A stretch of 20,723 bases of DNA from a virus. The DNA is taken from positions 1 through 20,723 of the IMG/VR virus record IMGVR_UViG_3300025769_001067; one strand, written 5' to 3'. This document shows positions 9,636 to 20,723 of this stretch, in pieces. The notes under the pieces are model-generated. The model had not been told where the DNA came from. It saw nothing but the letters and a program-made list of their open reading frames with translations, and made no database searches. The translations under genes and the position numbers were made by a program. How positions within the stretch are numbered: the first letter of the stretch is position 1; each line of letters opens with the position of its first letter.

Positions 9636-9820
9636 CAGTCAGCATCCGCTATAGTCAACTCGCCAGCTTCTACCTGACGCAAGATTTCTGCGTAGTGGCG
9701 GTTGCCTACAGTCATAGGAACCCAGCGAACAGTGCCATCAATCGTTGCCTTAATATCAGTGTTTTCATTGTCTGGGTTATCCAGAGGAGCTTTTATGTAT
9801 TGTGCGTTTGCTATAATCAT
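9635..9820 (-). CDS. Small fibre-associated protein, 61 residues
   Basis: The sequence has an N-terminal beta part (MIIANAQYIKAPL, then IKATIDGTVRWVPM) and a helical C-terminus NRHYAEILRQVEAGELTIADA. The combination ATIDG...VPxxxxNRHYAEI...VEAGxLxIxxAD is one I know from short proteins and domains next to tail-fibre genes in many phages, often linked to tail-fibre assembly chaperones. The function is not established. The start overlaps the fibre gene stop as ATGA, and the gene directly follows the carbohydrate-binding-type fibre at 9817-10794, which supports a fibre-related role. It also recalls the assembly-type proteins at 12408 and 13353. Confidence 0.6.
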   Translation of the reverse strand: MIIANAQYIKAPLDNPDNENTDIKATIDGTVRWVPMTVGNRHYAEILRQVEAGELTIADAD

Positions 9821-10794
9821 AACTCTGCATCCCCCTGTAATCCTGAAACGGAACTGTAATTTTTTCCTGTGTGGTAAATGTAACCGCCGCTGGTATTAAT
9901 GGCATAAAGCTGTGCGCTAGCACCGTTACCAGAAGCGGTAAAAGTTGGGGTAGCACGTTTTTGTTCTGTCCATTGGAAATTGCCTAAAGTCTGAGTAGAG
10001 TAATCTACTGGGTACACATTTGTGTCTAAAACTTCGTAATACCGTTTGCATTGCCGCAACTCATCGCCAAAGCTGCGGTGTTCAAACGGCGTGGCCTGTT
10101 CGCCTAGTTCTAGCTGGACGCCGGTGATGTAAAAGGTTGCGCCAGAATTAGAAATCCATTGTGTGGCAGAAGCTGTTGACCAAGTGCCTGAAGCGTTCCA
10201 AGTGTTAGCTGTTCCTTGAAAATTAGAACCAGCACCAAGAGAAAAAATAACACCTACACCAATGCTATTTGATGCGCCTTCCCAAGTCCCTGTTGTATCA
10301 CCTGCGACAGTTATTGTTTTGTATTCCCAAGTGTTTGCTGATGATATGGTATATGTTGATGGATTAGTTCTGTTTCCAGCATTATTGCGAAAACCAACTG
10401 CGTAAGTTCCAGTAACACTTGAACGAACCCAAAATGAAAGTGTGACTGAATAAGCTGAAGATGTCCCCCAGTTTGCGTGTGAAAAGTTAAAGGCCTCAAC
10501 AAAATGGCGGTATGAGTATTCATCACTAGCCGCAATAGATGTGTCTGCTGTTGTCACAGTACACACAACACTGTGGTTGAAACCTGATGGGGCTGTAGAA
10601 CTTTGTTGCATAGAAAACGCACCAGCACCTACCTTGCTTGCTTTCCATCTGTCAACTGGAAACTGCCCATCTCCCGAAACCGATGCCCCAGCGTTGCGCT
10701 GGTCAATGACTTTTGCACCATTGATGATAAGGTTCCTGTTTGATAAAGCCGTCTGCGAACCAATCAGTGCGGCTAGTTCTGCTGCTTTACTCAT
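9817..10794 (-). CDS. Tail fibre / receptor-binding-type protein with jelly-roll-like domain, 325 residues
   Basis: The start begins MSKAAELAALIGSQTALSNRN followed by a NRNLIINGAKVIDQRNAG-type segment (about 19-36), which I recognise as the lead of a beta-sandwich, carbohydrate-binding-like module common at phage fibre ends. A beta-rich body follows (SYSVTLSFWVRSS region; a W-rich stretch about 165-215), then the hallmark VQLELGEQATPFEHRSFGDE (about 233-255) and QCKRYYE. The C-terminus is LQGDAEL. An upstream in-frame ATG (10821) exists, but I chose 10794 because its ATGA overlaps the stop of the preceding paralogue, as at other cassette junctions, and because the extra nine residues (MRRSSRRPR) are only the antisense of the preceding gene's end. 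It is probably the distal host-contacting fibre or part of it. Confidence 0.75.
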   Translation of the reverse strand: MSKAAELAALIGSQTALSNRNLIINGAKVIDQRNAGASVSGDGQFPVDRWKASKVGAGAFSMQQSSTAPSGFNHSVVCTVTTADTSIAASDEYSYRHFVEAFNFSHANWGTSSAYSVTLSFWVRSSVTGTYAVGFRNNAGNRTNPSTYTISSANTWEYKTITVAGDTTGTWEGASNSIGVGVIFSLGAGSNFQGTANTWNASGTWSTASATQWISNSGATFYITGVQLELGEQATPFEHRSFGDELRQCKRYYEVLDTNVYPVDYSTQTLGNFQWTEQKRATPTFTASGNGASAQLYAINTSGGYIYHTGKNYSSVSGLQGDAEL

Positions 10795-11162
10795 GCGAGG
10801 TCTCCGTGAACTGCGGCGCACTGCGGAACAGATGAACCACCGCCACTGCTTGTAAAAGTTTTCATTTTGAAGGAACTTGCGCTTCTAGCAAAAACTCCCA
10901 CAAATCTGTCTATTGCTGTTGGTTGAGGTTCATCAGCGGCAACGGTGATTGTATAATTTGTAATCATATTGTTCGTAAAAGTTGCGGTGTTATTATCCCC
11001 GTTGTCAGTGAAACTAGCAAAGTTAAAACTGTCACCGGCTGTAGCACCGCCGTCTAATTGTGCAACCCACGCCTTCGCACTACCGTTGGCAACATACGTC
11101 ATAGCCACTTCGTTTGACCCAGCGGCATCCTTCAGGGTGTTTACTCTAAGTTCGCTTGCCAT
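10791..11162 (-). CDS. Fibre-like paralogue C2 (second block), 123 residues
   Basis: The N-terminus reads MASELRVNTLKDAAGSNEVA then YVANGSAKAWV; the middle carries DSFNFASFTDNG and FTNNMITNYTITV; the C-terminus is VHGDLA. The segment YVxxGSAKAWV matches the C1 protein at 14211-14588, and 20 bases of DNA (11065-11084) are identical to 14494-14513. The middle pattern (S-F-N-x-S-x-x-D then FxNxMxxNY) is one I know as a beta-rich module in aquatic phage fibre-type proteins. It is the last unit of the second D-A-B-C block. Its TGA overlaps the next gene's ATG, with GAC CTC GCA just before the stop. Probably a short fibre or adhesin; the ligand is unknown. Confidence 0.7.
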   Translation of the reverse strand: MASELRVNTLKDAAGSNEVAMTYVANGSAKAWVAQLDGGATAGDSFNFASFTDNGDNNTATFTNNMITNYTITVAADEPQPTAIDRFVGVFARSASSFKMKTFTSSGGGSSVPQCAAVHGDLA

Positions 11163-11566
11163 TATGCGAGGTCTCCCGTGCTAAGAAAACTAAAATCGGC
11201 ATCGCCTGTAGAACCGTTATAGTCTTGAGTCGCAAAAGTAGCTGCGGTAGTGCTGGAATATATAGCACCGCTTTGTCCTGAAACATTGGGGTCTGATGCC
11301 GAACCTGTGCAACAACCAACGCAACTATATATATTTGCAAAAGCATTTGTAGCCGCTACAGTGTAGTTTCCTGTTGAATTGTCTGTAATGGAAGCATTAT
11401 TGAAAGAGTTTCTAACTGTGTTAGAGGTATTTGTATCAAACCATCCCCAATGCTTCGCCAAGCCCTGCTGAAGTGATTGCGTTGCTGCCCCACCTTCAGA
11501 TGTAACAGTAATGTCACCAGCCGCTGTGATACCTTGCAGTTCGTCTACTTTTAATATACTAGCCAT
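11162..11566 (-). CDS. Fibre-like paralogue B2 (second block), 134 residues
   Basis: The lead is MASILKVDELQGITAAGDIT then VTSEGGAATQSLQQGLAKHW, nearly the same as B1 at 14588-14995 (VTSEGGAATMQLQQGLAKVW). The middle has VRNSFNNASITDNSTGNYTV followed by a Cys-rich turn (YSCVGCC, about residues 74-80) that B1 lacks but C1 echoes (YSCPTAC). The C-terminal third is Ser/Thr/Gly-rich and variable, ending STGDLA. Beta-rich, with no signal peptide. TAATG overlaps join it to its neighbours on both sides. The strong N-terminal match to B1 plus a divergent C-terminus suggests the N-terminus docks and the C-terminus binds a ligand; that division is inference. Confidence 0.7.
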   Translation of the reverse strand: MASILKVDELQGITAAGDITVTSEGGAATQSLQQGLAKHWGWFDTNTSNTVRNSFNNASITDNSTGNYTVAATNAFANIYSCVGCCTGSASDPNVSGQSGAIYSSTTAATFATQDYNGSTGDADFSFLSTGDLA

Positions 11567-11943
11567 TATGCGAGGTCTCCCATTAATAAACCTGCTTGGT
11601 TTTCTACGTCTGCATCACTACCACCAGAAATTGTTGAATACATTAAAAATGTACTTGTAGATTTTATTCCTATTGTAGTCGTTCTATTAGAACGGTCAGT
11701 AGATGCATCTCCTCCTGCTACACCTGTGGCAAAGCTATCTGTTGAGGACAACGCAGAAGTCAGGGATGTTGTAGACTGCCCTGTTCCATTATCTGCTATA
11801 GAACTTACATTAAGACTTTTACGAATGTCTGGAACAGTCATGTCGTTATTACTATATGCTTTAGCCGCTTCCTGCTTAGTCAACCCAACAGGACCAGTGC
11901 CAGCCTTATCAGCAATAGTATCTACATTCAATACGCTGGTCAT
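11566..11943 (-). CDS. Fibre-like paralogue A2 (second block), 125 residues
   Basis: It starts MTSVLNVDTIADKAGTGPVG and carries the A-type signature PVGLTKQEAAKAY (A1 has PVTLTKQSAAKAW). The middle has IRKSLNVSSIADNGTG, the same beta module seen in all six paralogues. The C-terminus is GLLMGDLA. I moved the start from an upstream in-frame ATG at 11955 to 11943, because ATGA there overlaps the TGA stop of the D2 gene (11940-11942), exactly as A1 overlaps D1. The stop forms TAATG with B2. It is the most divergent middle domain of the six: the FxNxM and NY positions are not conserved. Confidence 0.7.
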   Translation of the reverse strand: MTSVLNVDTIADKAGTGPVGLTKQEAAKAYSNNDMTVPDIRKSLNVSSIADNGTGQSTTSLTSALSSTDSFATGVAGGDASTDRSNRTTTIGIKSTSTFLMYSTISGGSDADVENQAGLLMGDLA

Positions 11944-12398
11944 ACGATACTCCAATATCCATTAACAGTGACGACAGCGTTCTGTGTGATAGGCCCACCT
12001 GACACACCATTCTCATCGCTGTCAATAGTAATGTCTGCATTGATGGTCTGCCCATTCAAACGGATGATGCTGTTGTTACCTTTGAACGGATAACGTGTGT
12101 CACTTTCAACTTTAGTGTAGCTGTTCGCAACGCTGAACACATCATAGACTACAATCTCAACTACGTCATTTAAGCTAGCAGATGTGGTGAGTACAATGCT
12201 AGTACCACTTGTGCTGGTATAGTCAGTGACAGGCTTGAGTAGCACACCGTTCTGATACACGTCAACGTACAGGCCATCTGTGTAGGTCAGTGTCTTGCTA
12301 TCTGCATCACTGCCTGTGAAGGTAGTTTGACCAGCAGAGGCTTGGTAGAGGTAGCGGTTACGTACACCGTTTTGTGGGGATTTACCTATGTATGCCAT
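11940..12398 (-). CDS. Fibre-like protein D2 (second block), 152 residues
   Basis: It starts MAYIGKSPQNGVRNRYLYQA, then TTFTGSDADSKTLTYTDG, YVDVYQNGVLLKPVTDYT and VVEIVVYDVFSV. This series of beta strands is one I know from many aquatic-phage fibre N-termini (MAYIGKxPxxGVRxRY...YVDVYxNGVLL...DYT...DVVEIxxYDVF). The C-terminal part (about 95-152) has TRYPFKGNNSIIRLNG and ends VNGYWSIV. It resembles D1 at 15387-15902 in the opening MAYxG and in the VYxNxV...P...YT...D order. It opens the second D-A-B-C block. AAGGA precedes the ATG by about 7 bases. Probable role: attachment segment or short fibre. Confidence 0.7.
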   Translation of the reverse strand: MAYIGKSPQNGVRNRYLYQASAGQTTFTGSDADSKTLTYTDGLYVDVYQNGVLLKPVTDYTSTSGTSIVLTTSASLNDVVEIVVYDVFSVANSYTKVESDTRYPFKGNNSIIRLNGQTINADITIDSDENGVSGGPITQNAVVTVNGYWSIV

Positions 12399-12407
12399 CG
12401 TTATTCC

Positions 12408-12791
12408 TTATGGTTTAGTAGGCCACGTTACGTCATCAAGAGATGTGGCATTGTCTGTAATATCACGCAGGGCTTGACGGTAGGTTGTTTGTGCGGCGGT
12501 CATAGTAAGGTCACTAGATGCCCACCAATCTGTTTCTGCAATCAAACGATTACGTTCCTCACGAAGTAAACGCATAGGCTCCGCATTAACAAGTTCTGTT
12601 TTCTTAGCTGATACCTGTGACCAAGTTACACCAAAGTCGCTAGGTGTAGAGGATTCAACAGCACTACCATTATCATCAGCACCAGTAACCTTACGGAACA
12701 TTTGGTTAAACTCAGCCTCTGTGGTAGGCTCACCACGCAACACCCATTCGGTGATGCCCAGTTCGGTTAGAGACTTTGATATTGATGCCAT
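12408..12791 (-). CDS. Phage tail/fibre assembly chaperone-like protein, 127 residues
   Basis: The C-terminal half (about 73-127) reads MRLLREERNRLIAETDWWAS, then TYRQALRDITDNA and VTWPTKP. The series LRxERNxLIxxTDWW...YRQALRDIT...WP is the signature I know as the phage tail assembly chaperone family (Pfam Phage_tail_APC, PF16778, from memory). The N-terminal half (1-70) is less typical; ITEWVLRGEPTTEAEFNQMF may be a second small domain. Such proteins assist fibre folding or attachment. It lies between two fibre-like genes (12807-13313 and 11940-12398), which fits. SD AGGAG lies upstream of ATG 12791. It would be expected to act in the cytoplasm during assembly rather than in the particle. 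Confidence 0.8.
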   Translation of the reverse strand: MASISKSLTELGITEWVLRGEPTTEAEFNQMFRKVTGADDNGSAVESSTPSDFGVTWSQVSAKKTELVNAEPMRLLREERNRLIAETDWWASSDLTMTAAQTTYRQALRDITDNATSLDDVTWPTKP

Positions 12792-12806
12792 TTTGTTTAC
12801 TCCTGT

Positions 12807-13313
12807 TTATCCTGCGATTTCCATAAGAATCATTTCACATTTATTGTTTAATTCGGGGTTCATATCTACAGATGAAGTGTCATTTGCTAACTTACACATT
12901 TGGAATTTATAAGTTACAGCAGAAGTTGTACTAGGCGCATCAGTGTAAGAATAAGCAAGTGTTCCAAGTATATAGATGCCGCCAACCCCAAAATCATATG
13001 TTCTAATATTATGTCTTGAGATTTCTGTAGTATCACGCATTAATCTAGTGCTTCCGTGAATGTCTACTGTACCGCTTCTTTGTGCTGCTACAGACAGTGA
13101 AGCAAGAATTAATATCTTTGAATTTGTGCTGCTTGGCGTAATACTCAGCGTCATATTTGTCATATCTACATAACTTGTAGTTGTATTTGATAAATTGACA
13201 CCTGTGCTAATTTGCTTAACCTGAAGCAGACTCCCCGCACCAGTCACAGTGCCAGTGAACGCATAGTCATCTGTAAGGTCAATGCCTTCTGCTATAATCT
13301 TACTTAATGCCAT
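12807..13313 (-). CDS. Fibre/adhesin-like beta protein, 168 residues
   Basis: It starts MALSKIIAEGIDLTDDYAFT with a Gly-containing lead (FTGTVTGAG). A beta-rich domain follows with SYVDMTNMTLSITPSSTNSK, ILILASLSV, LMRDTTEI and SAVTYKFQM, ending CEMILMEIAG. The order SITPSSTxSKIL...RDxTxI...TYKxQ...ILMEIAG is one I know from beta-sandwich tail-fibre domains of marine phages and metagenomes. It has its own SD (GGAG before ATG 13313) and a stop 15 bases before the APC-like gene start. It sits in the spacer between the two D-A-B-C blocks, with assembly-type genes on both sides. It is AT-richer than the genes at 18056-19567. Role: probable accessory fibre. Confidence 0.65.
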   Translation of the reverse strand: MALSKIIAEGIDLTDDYAFTGTVTGAGSLLQVKQISTGVNLSNTTTSYVDMTNMTLSITPSSTNSKILILASLSVAAQRSGTVDIHGSTRLMRDTTEISRHNIRTYDFGVGGIYILGTLAYSYTDAPSTTSAVTYKFQMCKLANDTSSVDMNPELNNKCEMILMEIAG

Positions 13314-13342
13314 CTAGTTCTCCAACGGTCAAACAGGGATGA

Positions 13343-13365
13343 CCCCTACGCATTAAGCGTAAGGG
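13343..13365 (-). promoter_or_regulatory. Hairpin overlapping a stop codon
   Basis: Arms CCCCTACGC (13343-13351) and GCGTAAGGG (13357-13365) pair with one bulged A around the loop ATTAA (plus-strand view). On the minus transcript the stem includes the last codons and TAA stop of 13353-13727. It is not followed by a T-run, so a full terminator is unlikely. An mRNA-stabilising or partial-termination element is possible. Confidence 0.35.
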
Positions 13366-13727
13366 CTATCACCAAGTGTGTCTGCATCCCAAGCTGCCTT
13401 GAGTTCAACAATAGTTGTTGCTGCGTCAATTGCTGCAGCGGCAGGTGCATCACGAAGTGCAGCTTTCCTAGCTACAGATGCAGCCTTTGCAGTTGCATCG
13501 TCAGCCTCTAGTGCCTTCATGTATACTACGTCTTCTGCGTCTAGCAGTGGTTTGCGAACTTCACGAACCTTATCACGGAAGATGTCTTTGGCAGATGCCA
13601 TGTCTTCTGAAATGACATTGCCACTCAATGACCATGCACCACGAAAGGCACGGTCAGAAGGAACGGTAGCCGTAGAAGCATCAATCTGATTCCCGTCCTT
13701 GTCTACGATGTATGTTGTTACAGCCAT
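13353..13727 (-). CDS. Fibre-assembly-type protein with RxFRxAW motif, 124 residues
   Basis: The N-terminal beta part is MAVTTYIVDKDGNQIDASTA, then VPSDRAFRGAWSLSGNVISEDM (about 22-43), followed by helices DIFRDKVREVRKPLLDAEDV and VARKAALRDAPAAAAID with ELKAAWD near the end. I know the pattern PxDRxFRxAW...DM..A..I.RDK.R..RxPLL...D...LRD.P as a frequent protein of fibre loci in aquatic phages, often beside assembly chaperones; its function is not established. It shares the RxFRxAW element with the neighbour at 13738 (STREWRNAW). SD GGAG precedes ATG 13727. Its stop codon sits in a hairpin. Confidence 0.65.
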   Translation of the reverse strand: MAVTTYIVDKDGNQIDASTATVPSDRAFRGAWSLSGNVISEDMASAKDIFRDKVREVRKPLLDAEDVVYMKALEADDATAKAASVARKAALRDAPAAAAIDAATTIVELKAAWDADTLGDSPYA

Positions 13728-13737
13728 TGTTTTCTCC

Positions 13738-14211
13738 TTATGCTGCTAAATCAGTGACGCTTAGTTCTTCAGTTATCTTCCAAGCATTGCGCCACTCACG
13801 TGTGCTTGGCAACTGTTCTTTACGGCAGATAACCATCTTTGGTTTATTGCCTTGATTCCAGTTCTGCCACACGTGCTGTGGGCAGTCCTTCATAATTAAG
13901 TATTCGATAGCTTCTTCTTCAGTCATAGCCTCAACAGGTTCTGTGTTGTGCAGCAAGTAACCACGAGTGTGCTTCTTGAAGTCAGGTTGTGCTTCGTCCT
14001 TTGCCAACTCGTGATACACCCACACAGGTGGTAGGATACCGCCCTGCAATGCACACGCCATCCAGTTTGGGTCAGGCACAAGTATCTTGGCGCACTCATC
14101 AACGCTGTCCTCATAGACAACACGATAGTCTGACTGCACACCGTCTAGGTTTTCCTTTGCCCAGCATAGGCGGTCAAACAGGTGGGTGCCTTGAAATTCA
14201 GGTGTCTGCAT
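13738..14211 (-). CDS. Conserved fibre-locus protein, 157 residues, C-terminal RxWRxAW motif
   Basis: The body is mixed alpha/beta with aromatic residues (HLFDRLCWAKENLDG; DPNWMACALQGGILPPVWVY). The second half has EAMTEEEAIEYLIMKDCPQH, VWQNWNQGN and finally KMVICRKEQLPSTREWRNAWK (about 125-146). The last element is the same kind of motif as in the next gene (PSDRAFRGAW). I know similar C-terminal domains from hypothetical proteins in marine phage fibre regions; no function is proven. An assembly or attachment factor is plausible. Its ATG overlaps the TAA of the C1 paralogue (TAATG), so it is translated directly after the first D-A-B-C block. The N-terminal 110 residues are not recognised. 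Confidence 0.6.
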   Translation of the reverse strand: MQTPEFQGTHLFDRLCWAKENLDGVQSDYRVVYEDSVDECAKILVPDPNWMACALQGGILPPVWVYHELAKDEAQPDFKKHTRGYLLHNTEPVEAMTEEEAIEYLIMKDCPQHVWQNWNQGNKPKMVICRKEQLPSTREWRNAWKITEELSVTDLAA

Positions 14212-14588
14212 TATGCGAGGTCTCCTAAAAAACTAACCATATTAAAGTTTCTGTCTGCTAAAGAAGCATTTGCAAAAGAGTTAAACTTAGTAGACCCAGT
14301 CACAAAAGTGTGAGGGTCAAGGCTGCACGCTGTGCTACCTGCATCGCCATTGCTACACGCTGTTGGGCAAGAATAATTTGCATTTGCCATAGCATTGCTA
14401 AATGTTACGATTGTTTTTCCAGTTGAAACATCACTCAAACTTGACGTGTTCAGGCTATCTCTAATGCTGGTTGTTGTGTTTGAAGTATAGTTCACCCACG
14501 CCTTCGCACTACCCTCAACAACATAGTTCGTGGCGATTGACCCAGCGGTGCTGTGTTCAATCTGGTCTGCTATAATTTTTCCAGCCAT
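14211..14588 (-). CDS. Fibre-like paralogue C1 (first block), 125 residues
   Basis: Lead: MAGKIIADQIEHSTAGSIAT then YVVEGSAKAWVNY, the C-type signature shared with C2 at 10791-11162. Middle: IRDSLNTSSLSDVSTG and FSNAMANANYSCPTACSN, the module common to all six paralogues. Four Cys residues lie between about 76 and 92 (two in YSCPTAC), unusual for an extracellular fibre made in the cytoplasm. The C-terminus is VSFLGDLA. TAATG overlaps join it to B1 upstream and to the 157-residue gene downstream. Probable short fibre or adhesin. Confidence 0.7.
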   Translation of the reverse strand: MAGKIIADQIEHSTAGSIATNYVVEGSAKAWVNYTSNTTTSIRDSLNTSSLSDVSTGKTIVTFSNAMANANYSCPTACSNGDAGSTACSLDPHTFVTGSTKFNSFANASLADRNFNMVSFLGDLA

Positions 14589-14995
14589 TATGCGAGACTC
14601 CCGTGGATTGCAAAAGTTGCTATTGATGTATCATAAAATGACCCTGTTGTAGCACTTCGCAACTGAACGCTTGATGTACTGGTTGGTGATTGTACTAAAC
14701 CAAGTTGGTCACCCGCTGCTGTATGGTACGGTGTTGCACCGCCAATCGGAACACTGTAATTTATGTTGCTCATTGCGTTGGAGAAATTTGTGGTATAAGT
14801 CCCTGTCCCATCATCTACGATACTGGTCACGGCATACGAATCACGAATTGCAATAGTGCCTGTGCCATTGAAGTTAATCCAAACCTTCGCCAGCCCCTGC
14901 TGCAACTGCATAGTCGCCGCACCACCTTCACTTGTCACTGTAATGTCACCAGCGGTTGTCTTGCCGGTGAGGGTGTCTACTTTTATCTCACTCAT
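14588..14995 (-). CDS. Fibre-like paralogue B1 (first block), 135 residues
   Basis: Lead: MSEIKVDTLTGKTTAGDIT then VTSEGGAATMQLQQGLAKVW, nearly identical to B2. The middle has IRDSYAVTSIVDDGTGTYTT followed by FSNAMSNINYSVPIGG, the best example in the window of the beta module. The C-terminal third (about 85-135) is Ser/Thr/Gln-rich and unlike B2. It ends AIHGSLA, where the others end GDLA, so one residue of the conserved tail has changed. Its start overlaps the A1 stop (ATGA), and its stop overlaps the C1 start (TAATG). Confidence 0.7.
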   Translation of the reverse strand: MSEIKVDTLTGKTTAGDITVTSEGGAATMQLQQGLAKVWINFNGTGTIAIRDSYAVTSIVDDGTGTYTTNFSNAMSNINYSVPIGGATPYHTAAGDQLGLVQSPTSTSSVQLRSATTGSFYDTSIATFAIHGSLA

Positions 14996-15390
14996 GCTAG
15001 GTCTCCAAATACTGCCGTCATCTGATTGTCACTGTCTCCGCCGCCTGTTCCGCTGTTTAAAGCGTTGGCTGACTGAGTATTGTAGGTTGATGAGGTTGGT
15101 GGAACACCCCTTCTTAATCCTATTACAATCATAAACTCATTAGATGTACCGTCTTCGTAACCATTCATTCCAACTATAGTATAATTAGCATCACTCATAT
15201 TACTCCCAAAGGATATTTGAACGTGACCAGTCCCAACATCTGTTGCTGAACTGAAATTAAAAGATGACGTGGTGGTTAATGCGCTGCGTTGGTCTTGTCT
15301 TGTCCACGCCTTTGCCGCACTCTGCTTCGTCAGCGTGACAGGACTTGTGCCATCGCTTGCAGTAATTGTGTCTGTGCGTAATTCACTCAT
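14992..15390 (-). CDS. Fibre-like paralogue A1 (first block), 132 residues
   Basis: It starts MSELRTDTITASDGTSPVTL with the A-type signature PVTLTKQSAAKAW. The middle has SSFNFSSATDVGTGHVQISF and SNMSDANYTIVGMNGY, fitting the common module; its SFNFSSATD is closest to C2 (SFNFASFTD), not to A2. The C-terminus is Gly/Ser/Asn-rich and ends TAVFGDLA. It directly follows D1 through ATGA (15387-15390). Probably a short fibre subunit; the receptor is unknown. Confidence 0.7.
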   Translation of the reverse strand: MSELRTDTITASDGTSPVTLTKQSAAKAWTRQDQRSALTTTSSFNFSSATDVGTGHVQISFGSNMSDANYTIVGMNGYEDGTSNEFMIVIGLRRGVPPTSSTYNTQSANALNSGTGGGDSDNQMTAVFGDLA

Positions 15391-15902
15391 GCTATCACCA
15401 GATTACCGCCGGTTGTTACCGTCAGTGTTACCCCTGTTGCGATTGTCAATGGGCCAGCACAAAGCGCATTATCGGTTGCTGCGATGGTCACGTTAGTATC
15501 AAGCTGCTGTTCGTGAACACGGAAGATGTCACCCTTACCATTAGTCGTATCACCTGTCGCACCGTTCTCGCCTTGAAAGTAACCTGCGCCAAGAGATAGG
15601 CTAGGTGAAAGCATTGCCTGTGTAATTGTACCAGCACCCGGAGTTACAGTCTGCTGGGCTTTGCTTTGGAATACGACATAGAAATCATCACTAGCTACAA
15701 TGCTACCAGTCATTGTCAATGCAGTACCAGCTACAGTGTAAGCTACACCGGGTTCTTGGCGAACATTGTTTACATATACCTCAATGTCACCTACACTACC
15801 TGCAGGATAGTCAAGCGTAAAGGCTGTACCTGTACCGCCAGTTAAATCCTGATAGGATACTGTGCTGTAATTAGTCGCTGGTATATTACCAAGATATGCC
15901 AT
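15387..15902 (-). CDS. Fibre-like protein D1 (first block), 171 residues
   Basis: It starts MAYLGNIPATNYSTVSYQDL, then TAFTLDYPAG, DIEVYVNNVRQEPGVAYTVA and FYVVFQSKAQQ. This order of strands (MAYLGxxPA...FTL...IxVYxNxVxQEPxxxYxVxG...VVF) is one I know from the N-termini of many aquatic-phage tail fibres. The C-terminal part (about 95-171) has FQGENGATGDTTNGKGDIFR and a repetitive Thr-rich beta end (LTVTTGGNLVIA). It opens the first D-A-B-C block and corresponds to D2 at 11940-12398. Its SD is internal to AAGGATTAGGG before ATG 15902. Its stop overlaps A1 as ATGA. Confidence 0.7.
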   Translation of the reverse strand: MAYLGNIPATNYSTVSYQDLTGGTGTAFTLDYPAGSVGDIEVYVNNVRQEPGVAYTVAGTALTMTGSIVASDDFYVVFQSKAQQTVTPGAGTITQAMLSPSLSLGAGYFQGENGATGDTTNGKGDIFRVHEQQLDTNVTIAATDNALCAGPLTIATGVTLTVTTGGNLVIA

Positions 15903-15912
15903 GCCCTAATCC

Positions 15913-16257
15913 TTACGTAATGTCAAGATGGCTGAGAACAACGTCAGCGGATGAAGCAGTATCGGATGTTACTTTGATAGCATCACCCGGTTCTAGTACC
16001 ACTTTCTGGTCTCCACCTACCACAACTAAAGAACCACCAACTGGAATTGGTGCCTCTTTAACAAGGTAAACACTGTCTTCTGCACCGCTAGTACGACCTG
16101 AAGCATCAAGCTGTACGTCTACGGTAATCTGACTTGTTACAATGTTAGAGATACTCAACCCAATGATGGTGGTTTCGGTTGCAGCACCACAAGTAAGGAT
16201 AGTCGCTGGGGACGTTCCTACTGCAGTATCTGTCTCTGATAAAAATGCGTTTGCCAT
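15913..16257 (-). CDS. Small beta-rich virion-type protein, 114 residues
   Basis: It starts MANAFLSETDTAVGTSPATI. The chain is Val/Thr/Ser/Ala-rich, predicted all-beta, with ISNIVTSQITVDVQL and VVLEPGDAIKVTSDTASSAD as core strands. The order (L/I-x-I-S/T-N...T-V...G-D-x-I-x-V...A-D-V-V) also fits the 118-residue protein at 20233-20589. This resembles small proteins of marine phages that I suspect are decoration or tail-attached beta-sandwiches; no function is established. It is the first gene after the consensus promoter at 16278-16306 and so the first of the fibre cassette transcript. SD AGAGGG is at the very start of the predicted transcript. Confidence 0.6.
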   Translation of the reverse strand: MANAFLSETDTAVGTSPATILTCGAATETTIIGLSISNIVTSQITVDVQLDASGRTSGAEDSVYLVKEAPIPVGGSLVVVGGDQKVVLEPGDAIKVTSDTASSADVVLSHLDIT

Positions 16258-16277
16258 GTTTATCCCTCTTCGGATAT

Positions 16278-16306
16278 ATTATAAAGTAATTTTACTTGTT
16301 TGTCAA
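16278..16306 (-). promoter_or_regulatory. Consensus sigma70 promoter, exact -35 and -10
   Basis: On the minus strand TTGACA (16301-16306) is followed after exactly 17 bases by TATAAT (16278-16283), an exact match to both consensus hexamers with the ideal spacing. It lies in the 52-base gap between the 580-residue fibre stop and the ATG at 16257, pointing into the fibre cassette. Initiation is expected near 16271, giving a leader of only about 14 bases, so the ribosome binding site (16262-16270) is at the RNA 5' end. The gap is the longest stretch free of coding sequence on the minus strand apart from the window edges. Confidence 0.75.
16284..16297 (-). promoter_or_regulatory. Inverted repeat in the promoter spacer, candidate operator
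   Basis: AAGTAA (16284-16289) and TTACTT (16292-16297) form a 6-2-6 inverted repeat that exactly abuts the -10 hexamer and ends 3 bases from the -35 hexamer. A dimeric repressor bound there would block polymerase. The repeat is AT-rich and short, so chance is possible. Confidence 0.4.
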
Positions 16307-16309
16307 CAG

Positions 16310-18052
16310 TTATCCTAGTGCAATCGCAAAGGCTAATGCTGATGGGTCAGTTTCTGTAATTGTAGGCGTATCCCAAGACAAAGTACCTGAACCATCTGTC
16401 ACAAGTGCCTGTCCTGCAGTACCATCACCATCAGGGAAGGTGAATGTTGTATTTGTTGTTACTGTATTAGGTGCTTGGAAACGAAGATAGTTAAAGCTGC
16501 CAGAATTTATGTCATTGAATTGTAGATAACCACTAGCTTCTGTGCCGTTTACTGTAGTTTTTAGGCGTGTTACACCAAGACCATCGTTAATAGAAACACC
16601 ACCGCCAGTAGCGTATACAAATGTTTTAGTACCGTCTTCACTTTGAAGGCCAACATTATCAGACTTCATGTACAAGCCACCAGTAGCACTAGAAACAATA
16701 GTACTGTGGTTATTATTAGGGTCTTGATAGATTTCTAATTCTTGCCCAGCACCAAACTGTAAGCGGTCATCTGTTGCACTTGAACTGTCACCGAACTGAA
16801 CAAGCTGTCCATTAGTATCTAGTGTGCCACCAAGCTGTGGGGTCAAGTCCTCTACAACATTAGCTATCCCGGCCCCTGCAGTTACCTGTGCGTCAACATA
16901 TGCCTTGATAGACTGTTGAGTTGCTAACTGCGTATCACTGTCAGAAGCCATATTGTCTTCGTCTAGAATGGCGGTTCCACTAACCCCTGTATCTAAAACT
17001 GCACTGGTAAGAGTTTTGTTGGTTAGCGTTTGAGTATCTGTGAGGGTTGCAACAGTGCTGTCGATTGCAAGGGTAACTGTCTGGCCCGTTGCAGATGTGT
17101 CGATACCAGTTCCGCCTGTTACAGTAAGAGACTGACTATCCAAATCTACAGCAGCGGTTCCCGTATCCGCAGCAACGTCCAAATCTTGGGCCGTAACCTG
17201 TGCATCTACGTAGGCTTTGGTTGCCTTTGCAGATGGAATCGTATCATCACTTGCTGAAACCGATGTGAGGTCTGTGTCCAAAATACCTGATGCAAGCATG
17301 GTTGTGTCGATGTTGGAAATGGTGTTGCTTGCAGCATCGATAGTCTTGTTAGTTAAGGTTTGCGAACCGGTTAGGGTAGCAACTGTGCTATCAATAGCCA
17401 GCGTCACGGTTTGTCCGGTTGCTGAACTATCGATACCTGTACCGCCTGCAACGGTAAGAGACTGACTATCAAGGTCAACTGCCGCCGTGCCTGTGTCTGC
17501 AGCCACATCTAAGTCTTGTGCAGTTACCTGTGCATCCACGTAGGTCTTAATTGCTTTTGCAGAAGCGAGGGTGTCATCAGATGCCGATACAGATGTTAGG
17601 TCAGTGTCTACGTCGGTTACGGCTGTTGCGGTTCCAATCACAAGGGCATCTACATTGGCTGTGCCGTCTAGGTACAGGTCTTTCCACTCTGCAGATACGC
17701 TACCTAAATCATACGCATCGTCGGTGTCTGGAATGATATCTGAATTGTAGCTAGTGGATGAGATGTTGTTTGCAACCACATCCCCTGCAAAGTAACCGTC
17801 TTTAAATTTAAGGGTTACACTGCCTACGTCTAGGGTATTGTTTGTTTTTGGAAGAACCTGTGTTCCACTTACAACCACGTCCTGTGCCGGACCAACAACA
17901 GTAATCGGCGCACCGTTTCCAGATGTGCCGTCGTGTGTGTGTCCCGTTGAATTGTTAAACGCAGTTACTAGCTGGTCGAACTCATCGTTGGAGTGTGCGG
18001 CGGTGATAACGTCGCCATCTGTAAATGTCGATTGACGGGTATAACCTGCCAT
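16310..18052 (-). CDS. Tail fibre protein with two 110-residue repeats, 580 residues
   Basis: Residues 1-50 (MAGYTRQSTFTDGDVITAAH, DEFDQL, GHTHDGTSGNGAPI) are the N-terminal attachment type I know from aquatic podovirus fibres. A unit with strands and LKFKDGYFAGD / YDLGSVSAEWKDLYLDG follows (to about 140). Then come two repeats of 110 residues: 149-237 and 259-347, each with SVSASDD, YVDAQVTAQDLDVAADTGTA, GGTGIDxSATGQTVTL and TLTNKT. A partial third (KAYVDAQVTAGAGI, about 383-396) follows. The C-terminal part (about 400-580) is beta-rich with FxFPDGDGTAGQALVTDGSG (about 538-556) and ends LAFAIALG. No enzyme motif. It probably forms the shaft of the main fibre, with host contact elsewhere. SD GGAAGGAG lies inside the previous gene's last codons. 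Confidence 0.8.
   Translation of the reverse strand: MAGYTRQSTFTDGDVITAAHSNDEFDQLVTAFNNSTGHTHDGTSGNGAPITVVGPAQDVVVSGTQVLPKTNNTLDVGSVTLKFKDGYFAGDVVANNISSTSYNSDIIPDTDDAYDLGSVSAEWKDLYLDGTANVDALVIGTATAVTDVDTDLTSVSASDDTLASAKAIKTYVDAQVTAQDLDVAADTGTAAVDLDSQSLTVAGGTGIDSSATGQTVTLAIDSTVATLTGSQTLTNKTIDAASNTISNIDTTMLASGILDTDLTSVSASDDTIPSAKATKAYVDAQVTAQDLDVAADTGTAAVDLDSQSLTVTGGTGIDTSATGQTVTLAIDSTVATLTDTQTLTNKTLTSAVLDTGVSGTAILDEDNMASDSDTQLATQQSIKAYVDAQVTAGAGIANVVEDLTPQLGGTLDTNGQLVQFGDSSSATDDRLQFGAGQELEIYQDPNNNHSTIVSSATGGLYMKSDNVGLQSEDGTKTFVYATGGGVSINDGLGVTRLKTTVNGTEASGYLQFNDINSGSFNYLRFQAPNTVTTNTTFTFPDGDGTAGQALVTDGSGTLSWDTPTITETDPSALAFAIALG
17012..17608 (-). repeat. Two 110-residue (330-base period) repeats inside the fibre gene
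   Basis: Copy 1 is 17342-17608 and copy 2 is 17012-17278, in the same frame. The proteins are almost the same, yet codons differ widely. Over the 28 residues A174-V201 and A284-V311 (start AQVTAQDLDV, end DSQSLTV) I counted 19 codons that differ, all synonymously. A partial third copy is at about 16865-16936. Confidence 0.8.
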
Positions 18053-18055
18053 GTT

Positions 18056-19567
18056 TTATCTCCTTCCCCCCGGAGTAAATTCCAGTTGGTATCCTTTGAT
18101 TGAAATTGGGTCGGCACCATCTTTATCATCTAGGCGAACCGAAACCGTAAACCCGCTGCCTTCGATACTTTGACGAACCAATGGCGTTCCTGTCGAACCG
18201 TACACTGCCGTTGCGTATAGGGATGAGGGGTTGCCGTAGATGGCAATAGCAGCACCAGTTGTTAGTGGGTACTGGGCCGGTTGCGGAACCTGTGATGAAC
18301 TGAAATCATACCGAATACGGAAATCCGCGTCCACAGCACCTTCGTTATCATAGTTCCAGATGATACGCTGCATCATTTTACGGATACCGGCATCACCCAT
18401 CGTGAAGTCTGGGCCTTGATAAATTGCTTGGATGTTCGCTCCGTTGAAAGTATCACCAACCTCTTGCTGGTAAACGTACCCGTCATACCCCCCGTGAATA
18501 ACAGTTTCGACACCGTTAATAAAGCCAGTGGTGCAACAGGCTGGTTTGATACCACGTAGGTCCGAATATTCCCAGCCGATACCCCCTTCGGTTCCTGCTT
18601 TAATTACCCCGATGATACCGGGTGCAGATGTATTAAGCTGGGCATCTCCGGGAAAAAACAAGCGATATTGACTTTTCTTACGGATTACAAGGGATGAAAT
18701 CCTGTCGGTGGATACCCCTTCGAGGCGTGGCTGTATCTGTTTTGAAACGGTGCCAAGTTCGATGTCATCGTTTTTCTGTGTACCTGCAACGGTTCGCAAA
18801 CCATCTGGGGCTAGATAAATCAGGTCGCCGCCGATTTCCTGAACGCTAAACCCGTCGATGCAACCAATCTTACGGGTAACAGGTTGTATTTGAAAATCTG
18901 CAATTGATGAACCAGTCATCAAGTAAATTTCATCTTCACAGAAAATGAACAGGCGTTCACGGAAAGATTTTAGTCTGCGAACCGGACTTTCGAACCGAAG
19001 CGAACCTGCACCGTTAGCCGTACTAAAGTCGGTTTCATCAAACGGAGCCGTGAAGATAACTTCCTGTGGGTTCGTGGACATACCACCAAAGAACACGTGG
19101 TTTTTGAACACTGCCACAAACTGAGGGTCGGCGGGTGCGCCCGTCGCATTTAGGTCGGTTACGGTTGTGTTGTTGTAAACAGACGCATTGTTCGCGCCAT
19201 CACACCAGATTACTTTAGGGGTGTTGTCAAAATTAAAGTTTGCAAAGTCGTAACGGCCTGCACTGGTTCGCCCAGTATCTATGCTTGTCCAACCGCTACC
19301 CGTACCTTTGTAGACTGCTGTTCCTTTAGAGGCAATAACTTGATTTTCATAGATATGAACACCAAGAATAATACCTGTCGAACCATCTACCTGATTTGCA
19401 TCGAACTCATCGAACCCATTGATGCGACGGTAGCCGCCGTTAATGTCCGGTTCGAAATTCTGTAACTGAAGAGCAGCACCCGGTGGAATCGAGAAAGTAT
19501 CCTTATCCAGAACCAAGCCGCCGCCTAAACGAACAACATAGGGGCTGAGTAGCGAAGTATCTGGCAT
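18056..19567 (-). CDS. Tail nozzle / tail hub-type protein, beta-propeller-like, 503 residues
   Basis: It starts MPDTSLLSPYVVRLGGGLVL and continues DKDTFSIPPGAALQLQNFEP and GGYRRINGFDEFD. This N-terminal pattern (GGLxxxxDxxxIxPGxAxxLxNFE...GxxRRxxGF) is one I know from tail-hub proteins of short-tailed phages (P22 gp10 and nozzle-like proteins). About six blade-like repeats follow, with elements such as VIASKGTAVYKGTGSGW, VIWCDGANNASVYN, HVFFGGMSTNPQEVIF, LFIFCEDEIYLM, DLIYLAPDGLRTVAG and YRLFFPGDAQ. The C-terminal part (about 385-503) is beta-rich. It directly follows the adaptor (TAATG), as nozzle follows adaptor in such phages. Confidence in a tail role is good; the exact homologue is uncertain. 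Confidence 0.7.
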   Translation of the reverse strand: MPDTSLLSPYVVRLGGGLVLDKDTFSIPPGAALQLQNFEPDINGGYRRINGFDEFDANQVDGSTGIILGVHIYENQVIASKGTAVYKGTGSGWTSIDTGRTSAGRYDFANFNFDNTPKVIWCDGANNASVYNNTTVTDLNATGAPADPQFVAVFKNHVFFGGMSTNPQEVIFTAPFDETDFSTANGAGSLRFESPVRRLKSFRERLFIFCEDEIYLMTGSSIADFQIQPVTRKIGCIDGFSVQEIGGDLIYLAPDGLRTVAGTQKNDDIELGTVSKQIQPRLEGVSTDRISSLVIRKKSQYRLFFPGDAQLNTSAPGIIGVIKAGTEGGIGWEYSDLRGIKPACCTTGFINGVETVIHGGYDGYVYQQEVGDTFNGANIQAIYQGPDFTMGDAGIRKMMQRIIWNYDNEGAVDADFRIRYDFSSSQVPQPAQYPLTTGAAIAIYGNPSSLYATAVYGSTGTPLVRQSIEGSGFTVSVRLDDKDGADPISIKGYQLEFTPGGRR

Positions 19568-20229
19568 TAAACGGCCCTCATGTAATCCTTACGGTTGATA
19601 AGTTCGACCCGCATACGGTTCAAGCCCTGTTCATAATCTCTCAATGCAAGCTGGGAAAATTGCGTGTCAGAACGAAGCATGTGTGTGTAGTAGCGTCCAC
19701 GATTAACTATAACGTCGTGGAAGCGTTCGGGTATCACAGGGGTATCTGTTGCAAGCGTCATGTCCGTGTGTGTTGCATAGTAATAGTAACGAACTGTGTA
19801 AGTTGACAAGTCAGGAACGGGAGACAAGCCAATCTTTTCATCAGGTGTAAAGTATACGTACTGGGATAGTGCTTGACTACCACCTGCTGGGTTGGTATCT
19901 GCTTCGTTAAGCCGTTCCAGATACTCATTAAATGAAATATACTTTAAGACCTTTTCTGCTGTGCTTGCCGATTCTTGAACTGTAAAGCTGTCAAAGTCAA
20001 TGGTCTTGGCAGTTGCTGGTTTAGTGTATTCGGCTGTACCAGCAGTCGTGGTAATTGAACCCGCTGTAACGGTAAAGGGCCACTCAACTTCAGAGTTGAT
20101 GATATCCCGCTGTGATTTGTTGATGAAGTCGCTAACAGAAGATTGAATGCCACGAGCCGAAGCCAAAGTGGTTAATTCAACTTCGTTAACTTCGCGCAAT
20201 ACCGCGTTGATGAGGTCGAGGTAGTTCAT
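19567..20229 (-). CDS. Head-tail adaptor-type protein, 220 residues
   Basis: It starts MNYLDLINAVLREVNEVELT. Residues about 25-60 carry the helix-strand element VSDFINKSQRDIINSEVEWPFT, then TTTAGTAEYTKPATAKTIDF, KYISFNEYLERLNE, YVYFTPDEKIGLSPVPDLST, YTVRYYYYAT and a C-terminal helical part RYYTHMLRSD. The series INKSQRDI..E.EWPF...T..GTAEY..P......D........P..KI.LSPVPD..Y.VRYYYY fits the adaptor family between portal and nozzle in short-tailed phages (SU10-type adaptor, T7 gp11-like in role). The gene is joined to the nozzle gene by a TAATG overlap. Its start is 3 bases from the upstream stop. Confidence 0.75.
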   Translation of the reverse strand: MNYLDLINAVLREVNEVELTTLASARGIQSSVSDFINKSQRDIINSEVEWPFTVTAGSITTTAGTAEYTKPATAKTIDFDSFTVQESASTAEKVLKYISFNEYLERLNEADTNPAGGSQALSQYVYFTPDEKIGLSPVPDLSTYTVRYYYYATHTDMTLATDTPVIPERFHDVIVNRGRYYTHMLRSDTQFSQLALRDYEQGLNRMRVELINRKDYMRAV

Positions 20230-20232
20230 TGG

Positions 20233-20589
20233 TTACCTATTTGGGTCGTAAAATTCTTCTGTACTAATTGTTACTATTAAGGTATTAGCAGTGCTAGCAG
20301 CAACAATAACCTTGTCACCCGCATGTAGATACAGAGGTTTATCTACTGTAAATACAGAATCAAACGTACCTCCTGCCAAAGAATGTCCAGAAAGAATAGT
20401 GTGGGTTATTGCTTCGTCTGCGTGATACCATTTTAAGGTGTAATTTCGGTTAGACGAATCGTTGTTGGTGATTAAAAGATGCGCTACGTGTGATGAAAAG
20501 TTATTAGGTACAACATAGATATCTGTATCTGACGTAGTTGTAAGGTCTACAGATTCTGTAAAAAACTTACTATTTCCAAGTACGGGCAT
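20233..20589 (-). CDS. Small beta-rich virion-type protein, 118 residues
   Basis: It starts MPVLGNSKFFTESVDLTTTS, with YVVPNNFSSHVAHLLITNND, YTLKWYHADEAI and LHAGDKVIVAASTANTLIVT as successive strands. The predicted fold is an all-beta sandwich. The order of elements (HLLITNN, GD-x-V-x-V, T-V-x-I-S-x-E-E) matches the 114-residue protein at 15913-16257. I know similar small proteins from marine phage virion operons, possibly decoration or head-closure proteins; the function is not established. Placed just before the adaptor, it is likely a connector or capsid accessory. The gene starts directly at the stop of the partial basic protein (2-base spacing). Confidence 0.65.
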   Translation of the reverse strand: MPVLGNSKFFTESVDLTTTSDTDIYVVPNNFSSHVAHLLITNNDSSNRNYTLKWYHADEAITHTILSGHSLAGGTFDSVFTVDKPLYLHAGDKVIVAASTANTLIVTISTEEFYDPNR

Positions 20590-20590
20590 T

Positions 20591-20723
20591 TTACTTCACT
20601 TTTCTGTATCGCTTCGTTTTAGCTTGTATCTTTTTAGGCTGTTTGGCAACTTGCTTACCAGCACGAGTTGCTCTTCTTTTAGCAGCAGTGGTTGCCGCAT
20701 ATTCTTTCTTCGATAACGCCTTG
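20591..20723 (-). CDS. Partial CDS, C-terminal 43 residues of a Lys/Arg-rich protein
   Basis: A minus-strand frame is open from the window edge to TAA (20591-20593). The visible 43 residues begin KALSKKEYAATTAAKRRATR and end KTKRYRKVK, with about 18 Lys or Arg. No domain is recognisable from this part. The tail is very basic, alanine-rich and likely unstructured or helical, and could bind DNA or negatively charged capsid surface. It ends 1 base before the ATG of the next gene, the same tight packing as in the rest of the operon. It may be a portal- or capsid-associated protein, but this is open. Confidence 0.6.
   Translation of the reverse strand, partial: KALSKKEYAATTAAKRRATRAGKQVAKQPKKIQAKTKRYRKVK

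Follow-up and report, generated by a model that had tools for sequence, protein, structure and literature searches.

Organization of the tail fibre gene array

The stretch of DNA analyzed here, below called the window, is the IMG/VR virus record IMGVR_UViG_3300025769_001067 over its full length of 20,723 nt, and our subject is an array of short tail fibre genes on its minus strand, in which two blocks repeat the order D-A-B-C. The original prediction, made from the letters alone, had placed eight open reading frames (ORFs) in this order at the coordinates given below, with four genes between the blocks and a signature peptide for each of D, A, B and C. The minus strand indeed has all eight ORFs at these coordinates, the intervening genes (E, F, G and H) are confirmed by the ORF listing, and every signature is found in the window proteins. 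The blocks measure 1692 and 1608 bp.

Block 1 starts with D1 (15387-15902; PHROG 18673, tail fiber, E-value 5e-10), an adaptor-like short fibre gene with a conserved C-terminal domain, followed by A1 (14992-15390; 2.8e-15), B1 (14588-14995; 3e-20) and C1 (14211-14588; 1.5e-15, aligned to profile positions 13-89 only). In block 2, D2 (11940-12398), an adaptor-like, very conserved short fibre gene with a tail-fibre family match, precedes A2 (11566-11943; 4.7e-11), B2 (11162-11566; 9e-14) and C2 (10791-11162; 3e-4, a weak match). The start of A2 is most likely the ATG at 11943, with a longer TTG alternative at 11955. The E-values of the A, B and C genes refer to PHROG 11355, a 131-position profile annotated as tail fiber protein, which five of them match at 5e-11 to 3e-20; their products are 123-135 amino acids long. 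No Pfam family was found above the cut-off among the ten window proteins scanned. The common match of all six proteins to PHROG 11355 rules out A, B and C as separate families, each with its own pair of members, and what stands of that proposal is the pairing of their N-terminal parts, described below.

All six slots follow one plan, in which ~30 conserved, slot-specific residues come first, then a shared motif region, about 50 hypervariable residues and a conserved end. We refer to the part up to the AK codons as the head (25-36 residues in the window proteins) and to the part that follows as the body (roughly 90 residues). The head of A1 comprises residues 1-25, and its exchangeable body runs from the A26-K27 codons (14992-15315); the head of B1 extends up to A36-K37 (body 14588-14890), and that of C1 up to A28-K29 (body 14211-14507). 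The bodies of A2, B2 and C2 occupy 11566-11865, 11162-11458 and 10791-11078, respectively.

Both edges of the body carry minus-strand repeats. A 12-nt repeat, GCGAAGGCGTGG, encoding AKAW, marks the 5' edge of the body, at the head/body junction, in A1, C1 and C2 (15304-15315, 14496-14507 and 11067-11078). A 17-nt direct repeat resembling GGAGACCTCGCATAATG is found six times between 10789 and 15006 at the ends of the A, B and C genes (10789-10805, 11160-11176, 11564-11580, 14209-14225, 14586-14602 and 14990-15006), with copies 76-100% identical; it comprises the GDLA codons, a probable Shine-Dalgarno sequence and the stop/start overlap, and forms the 3' edge of the body.

Slot-specific heads

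Relatives were collected by IMG/VR scans with B1, B2, E, D2 and D1, using the matches listed, at most 80 loci per query. Together with the window and isolates, this gave 313 loci, reduced to 267 (numbered with the prefix L). When the window is compared with them by blastn, islands, mostly of 75-95% identity, lie at each head, and the stretches between them are unalignable.

In the comparison of the window proteins with each other, B1 and B2 are 44% identical (E-value 4e-25), A1 and A2 35% (4e-15), D1 and D2 23% (6e-9), and C1 and C2 38% over only 63 amino acids (2.5e-7). A1-A2 and B1-B2 are best mutual pairs over the full length, while C2 is closest to A1 (2e-12), and C1 to B1 and B2. D1 and D2 are full-length homologues according to hhalign (E-value 1e-18, 29% identity, 144 columns).

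Hidden Markov models (HMMs) of the heads score 70-85 bits on their own slot versus 17-60 on the paired one. The pairing is strong for A1/A2 (34.9 and 41.6 bits versus at most 11.7 for other slots) and B1/B2 (54.0 and 59.8 versus at most 12.4). It is weak for C1/C2 (17.0 and 19.6 bits), where B2 competes with 15.6 and 19.8 bits, and A2 with 17.7 on the C2 model. Models of the part after the head give 42-66 bits for all slots; the own slot gains no more than ~8 bits (B2, C2), and a pair signal is absent. Head profile alignments with hhalign rank B1-B2 first (86.7), followed by A1-A2 (52.5), A1-B1 (40.8), B2-C2 (39.8) and C1-C2 (38.1). A head tree, built by a quick method from six heads of each of 13 loci over 44 columns, is too short to decide the pairings: both A1+A2 and B2+C2 are compatible with it, and neither the pairs nor four tested alternative pairs are shown or rejected.

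Exchange of bodies between slots and viruses

The comparisons demonstrate, at the level of sequence, that heads stay with their slot and that bodies are interchangeable across the six slots and between viruses. Of the 728 distinct bodies compared, 131 are at least 90% identical to their closest other body. In 58 cases this best match is in the same slot, in 17 in the paired slot and in 56 in another slot, so that 73 of the 131 are found under different heads. The DNA clusters (at least 90% identity over at least 150 nt) agree with this, since 37 of 86 span more than one slot, and DNA alignments contain bodies whose protein sequences are 100% identical under different heads.

Most exchange edges coincide with the AKxW codons or with GGAGACCTCGCAT. 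Full alignments of nine pairs show identity that starts at or near the AK codons and stops at GGAGA..GCAT, with unrelated flanks; in two of these pairs (L099/L095 and L063/L057) the downstream gene is common as well. Measured from the A codon of AK, the 5' edge lies at a median of 0 nt (quartiles -1 to +2.75); measured from the end of the stop codon, the median of the 3' edge is -2 nt. These values come from the 46 of 49 inter-slot pairs in which both edge codons were found. A separate breakpoint count, using body seeds only, covered 63 inter-slot pairs. The boundary is hit by 42 of their left and 44 of their right edges (by both in 31 pairs), while ten left edges extend into the head and four right edges beyond the stop codon.

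The window itself takes part in this exchange. Its A2 body has 96% DNA identity to the A1-slot body of L066, and its A1 body 87% to the A2-slot body of L097. Its B2 body has counterparts in the B2 slots of L019 (99% identical) and L087 (96%), and its C2 body in the C2 slot of L123 (99%); no such partner was found in the locus set for the B1 and C1 bodies. L019 and the window have the B2 body in common (99%) and differ in A2 and C2. This is the usual situation, as 119 of the 131 locus pairs with common bodies have just one in common. The same body was not found twice within one genome, though hardly any such case is expected at the observed sharing rate. The A1 body of Puniceispirillum phage HMO-2011 is identical to the B2-slot body of L035 in its second half and diverged in the first. 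The pool of bodies is large: 863 genes, some of them from overlapping loci, fall into 676 clusters at 90% identity, and the Chao1 estimate is roughly 2,200.

Gene edges and translation

The peptide GDLA ends 711 of 772 distinct genes. Its Gly codon is GGA in 701 of the 711 (versus 27% elsewhere in these genes), and its Asp codon is GAC in 661 (versus 35%). GGAG is kept in 38 of the 61 ends that differ from GDLA, in other reading frames too (HGSLA, MEIAQ), versus 3.9% of interior 22-nt windows. This codon bias, together with GGAG in the non-GDLA ends, fits a Shine-Dalgarno sequence for the gene that follows, and not a role of the peptide itself; GGAGACCTCGCAT encodes GDLA plus the probable ribosome site of that gene. 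As the 3' edge keeps GGAG in front of the next overlapping gene, an inserted body would leave the operon translated, and this double role of the GDLA codons would explain how tips can be inserted without breaking the operon. The motif of the 5' edge was found in 612 of the 772 genes, with Lys encoded by AAG in 472 (versus 25% elsewhere); here common ancestry of the heads may contribute to the bias.

Conservation of the array and its neighbours

Megablast of positions 9800-20723 against the phage collection matched only two entries, both of Puniceispirillum phage HMO-2011, and over its full length the tail protein encoded at 18056-19567 has 51% of its residues in common with the HMO-2011 counterpart. 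By these similarities the window is an HMO-2011-type marine phage. The order of D, A, C, E and T (the gene closing block 2, see below) is common to both. In HMO-2011 (gp28-gp41, NC_021864) we find D1, A1, a B slot, C1, E, F, a G position, D2, A2, a B slot, C2 and T, with A1, C1, A2 and C2 heads recognized by the HMMs, and five lectin bodies; E is 91% and D2 79% identical to those of the window. Unlike in the window, other genes occupy both B slots of HMO-2011 (in block 2 a C1q-annotated protein and a small gene), and at the G position a lectin body is found under a partial B2-like head. The HMO-2011 genes are annotated only as separate tail fiber proteins.

The layout is conserved in the locus set as well. 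D1 and E are both present in 108 loci, and exactly three genes lie between them in 96 of the 103 chains that could be closed; for D2 and T (57 loci with both) this holds for 38 of 47 closed chains, unclosed chains being left out of both counts. In the three-gene chains, 264 of 268 A-B and B-C junctions overlap by 1 or 4 nt. The complete order A1-B1-C1-A2-B2-C2 is seen in 35 loci, many loci being fragments, and rare loci mix the slots, e.g. A1-B2-C2-A2-B1-C1. In L204, block 1 continues after A1 with heads of the B2 and C2 types and with a T-like head (MSKASEL..) on a protein ending in GDLA, which means that whole genes also move between blocks. Slot B is replaced in block 1 of L232, L173 and L170, in L151 and L262, and in block 2 of L108; the alternatives are long fibres of 278-410 amino acids, a fibre with an assembly-like gene, or a C1q-annotated protein. 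In L285 and L289, long genes (1133 and 835 amino acids) downstream of D2 take the place of block 2. A genome-contig scan with B1 found no relative.

The neighbouring genes, also on the minus strand, are as follows. E (13738-14211), directly after the block 1 trio, is highly conserved (mean column identity 85% over 53 rows). It has no PHROG match up to an E-value of 0.1; a sequence search against PDB gave only chance-level myosin matches, and a fold search nothing usable. E is possibly an assembly factor. The small gene F (13353-13727; PHROG 20196, unknown, 3.8e-31) has a weak similarity to tail fibre assembly proteins (PHROG 4912, 0.033). G (12807-13313; PHROG 6942, tail fiber, 1.2e-10) is a separate short fibre-like gene outside the A/B/C family, and H (12408-12791; PHROG 4912, tail fiber assembly, 1.2e-15) is tail-fibre-assembly-like. 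Block 2 is closed by the larger fibre gene T (9817-10794; PHROG 4492, tail fiber, 2e-53), whose start (10715-10813) aligns with the relatives in blastn; some loci also align over short stretches further on, e.g. 10033-10141. With its conserved start and mostly variable remainder, T resembles a seventh, larger socket. Apart from the array, a fibre gene of 580 amino acids has an internal direct repeat, its parts at 17014-17278 and 17343-17608 cross-matching in relatives (blastn).

Origin of the two blocks

The two blocks had been attributed to a single block duplication. This is supported for the heads (A1/A2 and B1/B2 strongly, C1/C2 weakly) and for D1/D2 over their full length, and fails for the bodies. 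Each slot has its own orthologues across the relatives, and by the test set in the original prediction A1 thus groups with A1 of other phages and not with A2; the duplication therefore predates the lineage and did not happen within this phage. The explanation offered earlier for the divergence within pairs, an old event or fast change, overlooks the principal process, which is wholesale exchange of bodies between slots and viruses.

Single-block relatives, a search for which had been suggested, do exist, and their A- and C-type heads are in the same order. In the freshwater cyanophages Nsp-JY18 and Mel-JY33 (hosts named in the records: Nostoc, Microcystis), a gene with a D1-like C-terminal domain is followed by exactly three genes of ~125 codons, E and F; by eye, the C-terminal sequence of D1 recurs in the gene before the trio of the cyanophages L318 and L319. 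Between Nsp-JY18 and Mel-JY33, the genes around the trio are 96-99% identical and E 85%, while all three bodies are different; the heads are more similar than the bodies (96, 78 and 80% over the first 50 nt). A search for papers on these two phages found nothing. The Dunaliella viridis virus SI2 has, just before E, a 491-amino-acid fibre with one body fused to its end; a viral scan with the E of SI2 found no relative. Genes similar to E and F follow the lectin genes in Nsp-JY18, Mel-JY33 and SI2, and by this recurrence E and F look like parts of the ancestral module.

A scan with the cyanophage E yielded 71 new loci, of which 36 were examined and 26 had enough upstream sequence. Exactly three lectin genes precede E in 16 of these 26; the other ten have one (3 loci), two (3), four (2), five (1) or six (1), which weakens the hypothesis that there are always three. 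L350-L352 of this set are near-copies. Of the 20 distant loci whose sequence reaches 4.5 kb or more beyond E, 15 have no further lectin body and five have one; in L335, L336, L338, L343 and L344, viruses of this second lineage, an additional lectin body lies ~850 nt past the start of E. The first heads of the distant loci, extractable in only 12, score as A (median 35.7 bits on the A1 model and 23.3 on A2), and the third heads (n=23) as C (22.5 and 20.3 bits), while the second heads (n=22) do not score as B. In L333, L336 and L337, with more than three lectin genes, the first head is of the second type.

The order A-x-C in single-block loci makes a single ordered A-x-C block the likely ancestral form. 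The two blocks likely arose by an old duplication of one D-A-B-C block, with block 1, adjoining E, likely the older copy. The distant lineage, whose E genes are only about half identical to those of the HMO lineage, has bodies that match HMO-lineage ones at 80 and 87% identity; they occupy other slots and keep the same edges.

Predicted structure of the body

The AlphaFold2 monomer model of B1 (residues 2-135, 116-row alignment, mean predicted local distance difference test score, pLDDT, 83) has no secondary structure up to AK and a beta-sandwich directly after K37; parts of the head are modelled with low confidence (59-68). The leading rows of the VIA-align comparison contain the phiAB6 tailspike (Z 8.6), the Pam1 tailspike (7.6), AP22 gp53 (6.1), the snail lectin Helix pomatia agglutinin (6.0) and the R1/R2 pyocin fibres (5.3-5.4), along with unrelated beta proteins. 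A PDB sequence search with B1 gave no match. The model suggests that the body is likely a lectin-like tip, a predicted fold compatible with a receptor-binding role.

Interpretation and alternative explanations

We consider it probable that the two blocks form a six-socket array of exchangeable receptor-binding tips serving host recognition. Each block would comprise one adaptor-like fibre (D) and three short fibre proteins, whose socket-specific heads, inherited by descent, would set the place of the protein, possibly by docking on D or on the tail, while the ~90-residue body with its predicted lectin-like beta-sandwich would be the probable receptor-binding tip. Six different tips could widen or shift the host range. 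Swaps within a slot would proceed by ordinary homologous recombination between co-infecting phages, with the two heads that flank the body, that of its own gene and that of the following one (~100 nt each), serving as homology arms; for swaps between slots, the edge motifs of 12-17 nt may serve as micro-homology. HMO-2011 encodes a Cas4-type exonuclease, endonuclease I and a tyrosine integrase (gp09), a set compatible with such a recombination route.

If the block had simply been duplicated and the adhesin halves had then diverged fast through point mutations, with no exchange, this would account for the pairing of the A1/A2 and B1/B2 heads, the homology of D1 and D2, the equal order of both blocks and the existence of single-block relatives. 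The parts after the heads, however, have no pair signal, unrelated bodies lie between similar or near-identical flanks, and identical bodies under different heads rule out divergence without exchange; as an account of the whole array this is very improbable, the sequences having already refuted it for the bodies, while for the heads it stands. The cross-slot copies could also be artefacts of metagenome assembly, as most loci are IMG/VR contigs and near-identical heads can mislead assemblers into same-slot joins. However, the edges between slots have only about 12-17 nt in common, which is shorter than usual assembly k-mers, the isolates show the same pattern, and several exchanged bodies carry scattered substitutions, so that artefacts are hardly credible as the source. 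The short, fixed and repeatedly used edges, and the integrase of HMO-2011, may suggest a dedicated machine, either a site-specific recombinase or a diversity-generating retroelement, yet ~300 nt are replaced wholesale with no point-wise mutagenesis, a substantial part of the edges lies inside the body (see below), and in the available text of PMC9038755 int genes are linked to lysogeny and absent from subgroups IV-X; we regard this mechanism as highly improbable.

Two further explanations concern the architecture. The trio could be one long fibre split into genes, with D, A, B and C stacked and each head resting on the preceding body, in keeping with the conserved order, the overlapping genes, the fused fibre of SI2 and a weak alignment of two different stretches of PHROG 3484 (818 amino acids) to the bodies. 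But bodies precede different heads, which would require a generic contact between body and head; the nearest folds include several distal tip domains; and arrays of one, two and four genes exist, all of which makes a split fibre unlikely. Alternatively, A, B and C could form a heterotrimer, i.e. a single trimeric fibre with three different tips, present in two types per phage. In its favour are the overlap of the genes, the predominance of three-gene arrays in two distant lineages and the trimeric state of the pyocin and AP22 tips (PMC6363177, available text), which the body resembles in structure; on the other hand, arrays with one, two and four genes again disagree with it, and slot B may hold C1q-annotated proteins, long fibres or a fibre with an assembly-like partner. 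We give the heterotrimer an outside chance.

Several observations weigh against the six-socket array, or limit it. The same-slot share of best matches (58 of 131, 44%) exceeds the random expectation of 18% (15% for the paired slot), hence bodies are not fully slot-free, an excess such as descent or same-slot recombination would give. Of the edges in the 63 inter-slot pairs, 11 left (17%) and 15 right (24%) lie within the body, which means that internal exchange also occurs. The number of slots varies, with one, two, four or more lectin genes, and slot B is sometimes filled by unrelated fibres. Among seven isolates examined, only HMO-2011 carries such bodies; in five other, more distant HMO-2011-type isolates and the related phiM6, no A/B/C-type body was found in the tail regions fetched, which mostly consist of few long fibre-sized genes (in HTVC115P, of many mid-sized ones). 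Nearly all data are metagenome contigs, and the set retains 75 partly overlapping pairs as well as near-identical viruses, so the counts are not fully independent. The VIA-align Z scores (at most 8.6) are near the range typical of models with no clear match, and Foldseek found nothing at an E-value of 0.001 or below (best 0.35). Finally, we infer the receptor binding of the A, B and C proteins and their location in the virion from sequence, and the recombination protein that would act here is presumed.

A wider idea, which we put forward tentatively and regard as rather doubtful, is that aquatic phages have a common connector standard, bodies bounded by AKxW and GGAGACCTCGCAT fitting sockets in unrelated phages and forming one community-wide pool, and that each fibre may display three different tips together, in heteromeric and combinatorial form, twice per phage. 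If true, host range would evolve by drawing on this pool of tips.

Comparison with known systems

The edges of the exchanged bodies can be read directly from DNA, so that host-range turnover becomes countable in metagenomes by tip, socket and frequency of exchange. Tip swapping could explain an ongoing change in the cells recognised by such viruses, and the array supplies small, self-contained predicted lectins that could be tried on glycans of uncultured marine bacteria.

In T-even phages, hypervariable adhesin segments of the distal fibre are reportedly exchanged between conserved short motifs, as Tetart et al. are said to have described in 1998, with one adhesin per phage and the motifs lying within it. 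In contrast, the array has six parallel slots and exchanges whole bodies. The R-pyocin foot and the AP22 gp53 tip rank near the predicted body fold in VIA-align, though the similarity is weak (Foldseek E-values of at least 0.35). According to the available text of PMC6363177, the pyocin foot is a trimeric discoidin-like lectin domain, and in R-pyocins and AP22 the tip ends a long fibre, whereas in the window it is the product of a separate small gene.

Of the genes that can be identified in the variable (metaviromic) islands of marine phage genomes, those for tail fibres and C1q-like host-recognition proteins rank among the most frequent (PMC3909814); the parts of this paper available report under-recruiting regions, with no slots, heads or body exchange. 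As far as their available text goes, PMC6918029 and PMC8528129 treat tail fibres only in general terms, and the word 'fiber' is absent from the main text of PMC9038755. No account of such a socket array was found in the literature searched, which did not include the original genome paper of HMO-2011.

The nearest analogue is the exchange in the branched tailspike complex of Ackermannviridae, for which we rely on the available text of PMC11414711. This complex provides several receptor-binding proteins per phage and, like the array, has slot-specific conserved N-terminal modules and exchangeable C-terminal receptor domains, with recombination at conserved 5' ends. It comprises up to four tailspikes, versus six small proteins in two blocks in the window; moreover, the window array has short edges at both ends of the body, accepts bodies in all sockets, and is known from its genes only. 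Tip exchange is known in outline, usually with one or few large proteins per phage; in this abundant group of ocean phages, it is the small probable tips of a fixed rack of six sockets that are swapped singly.

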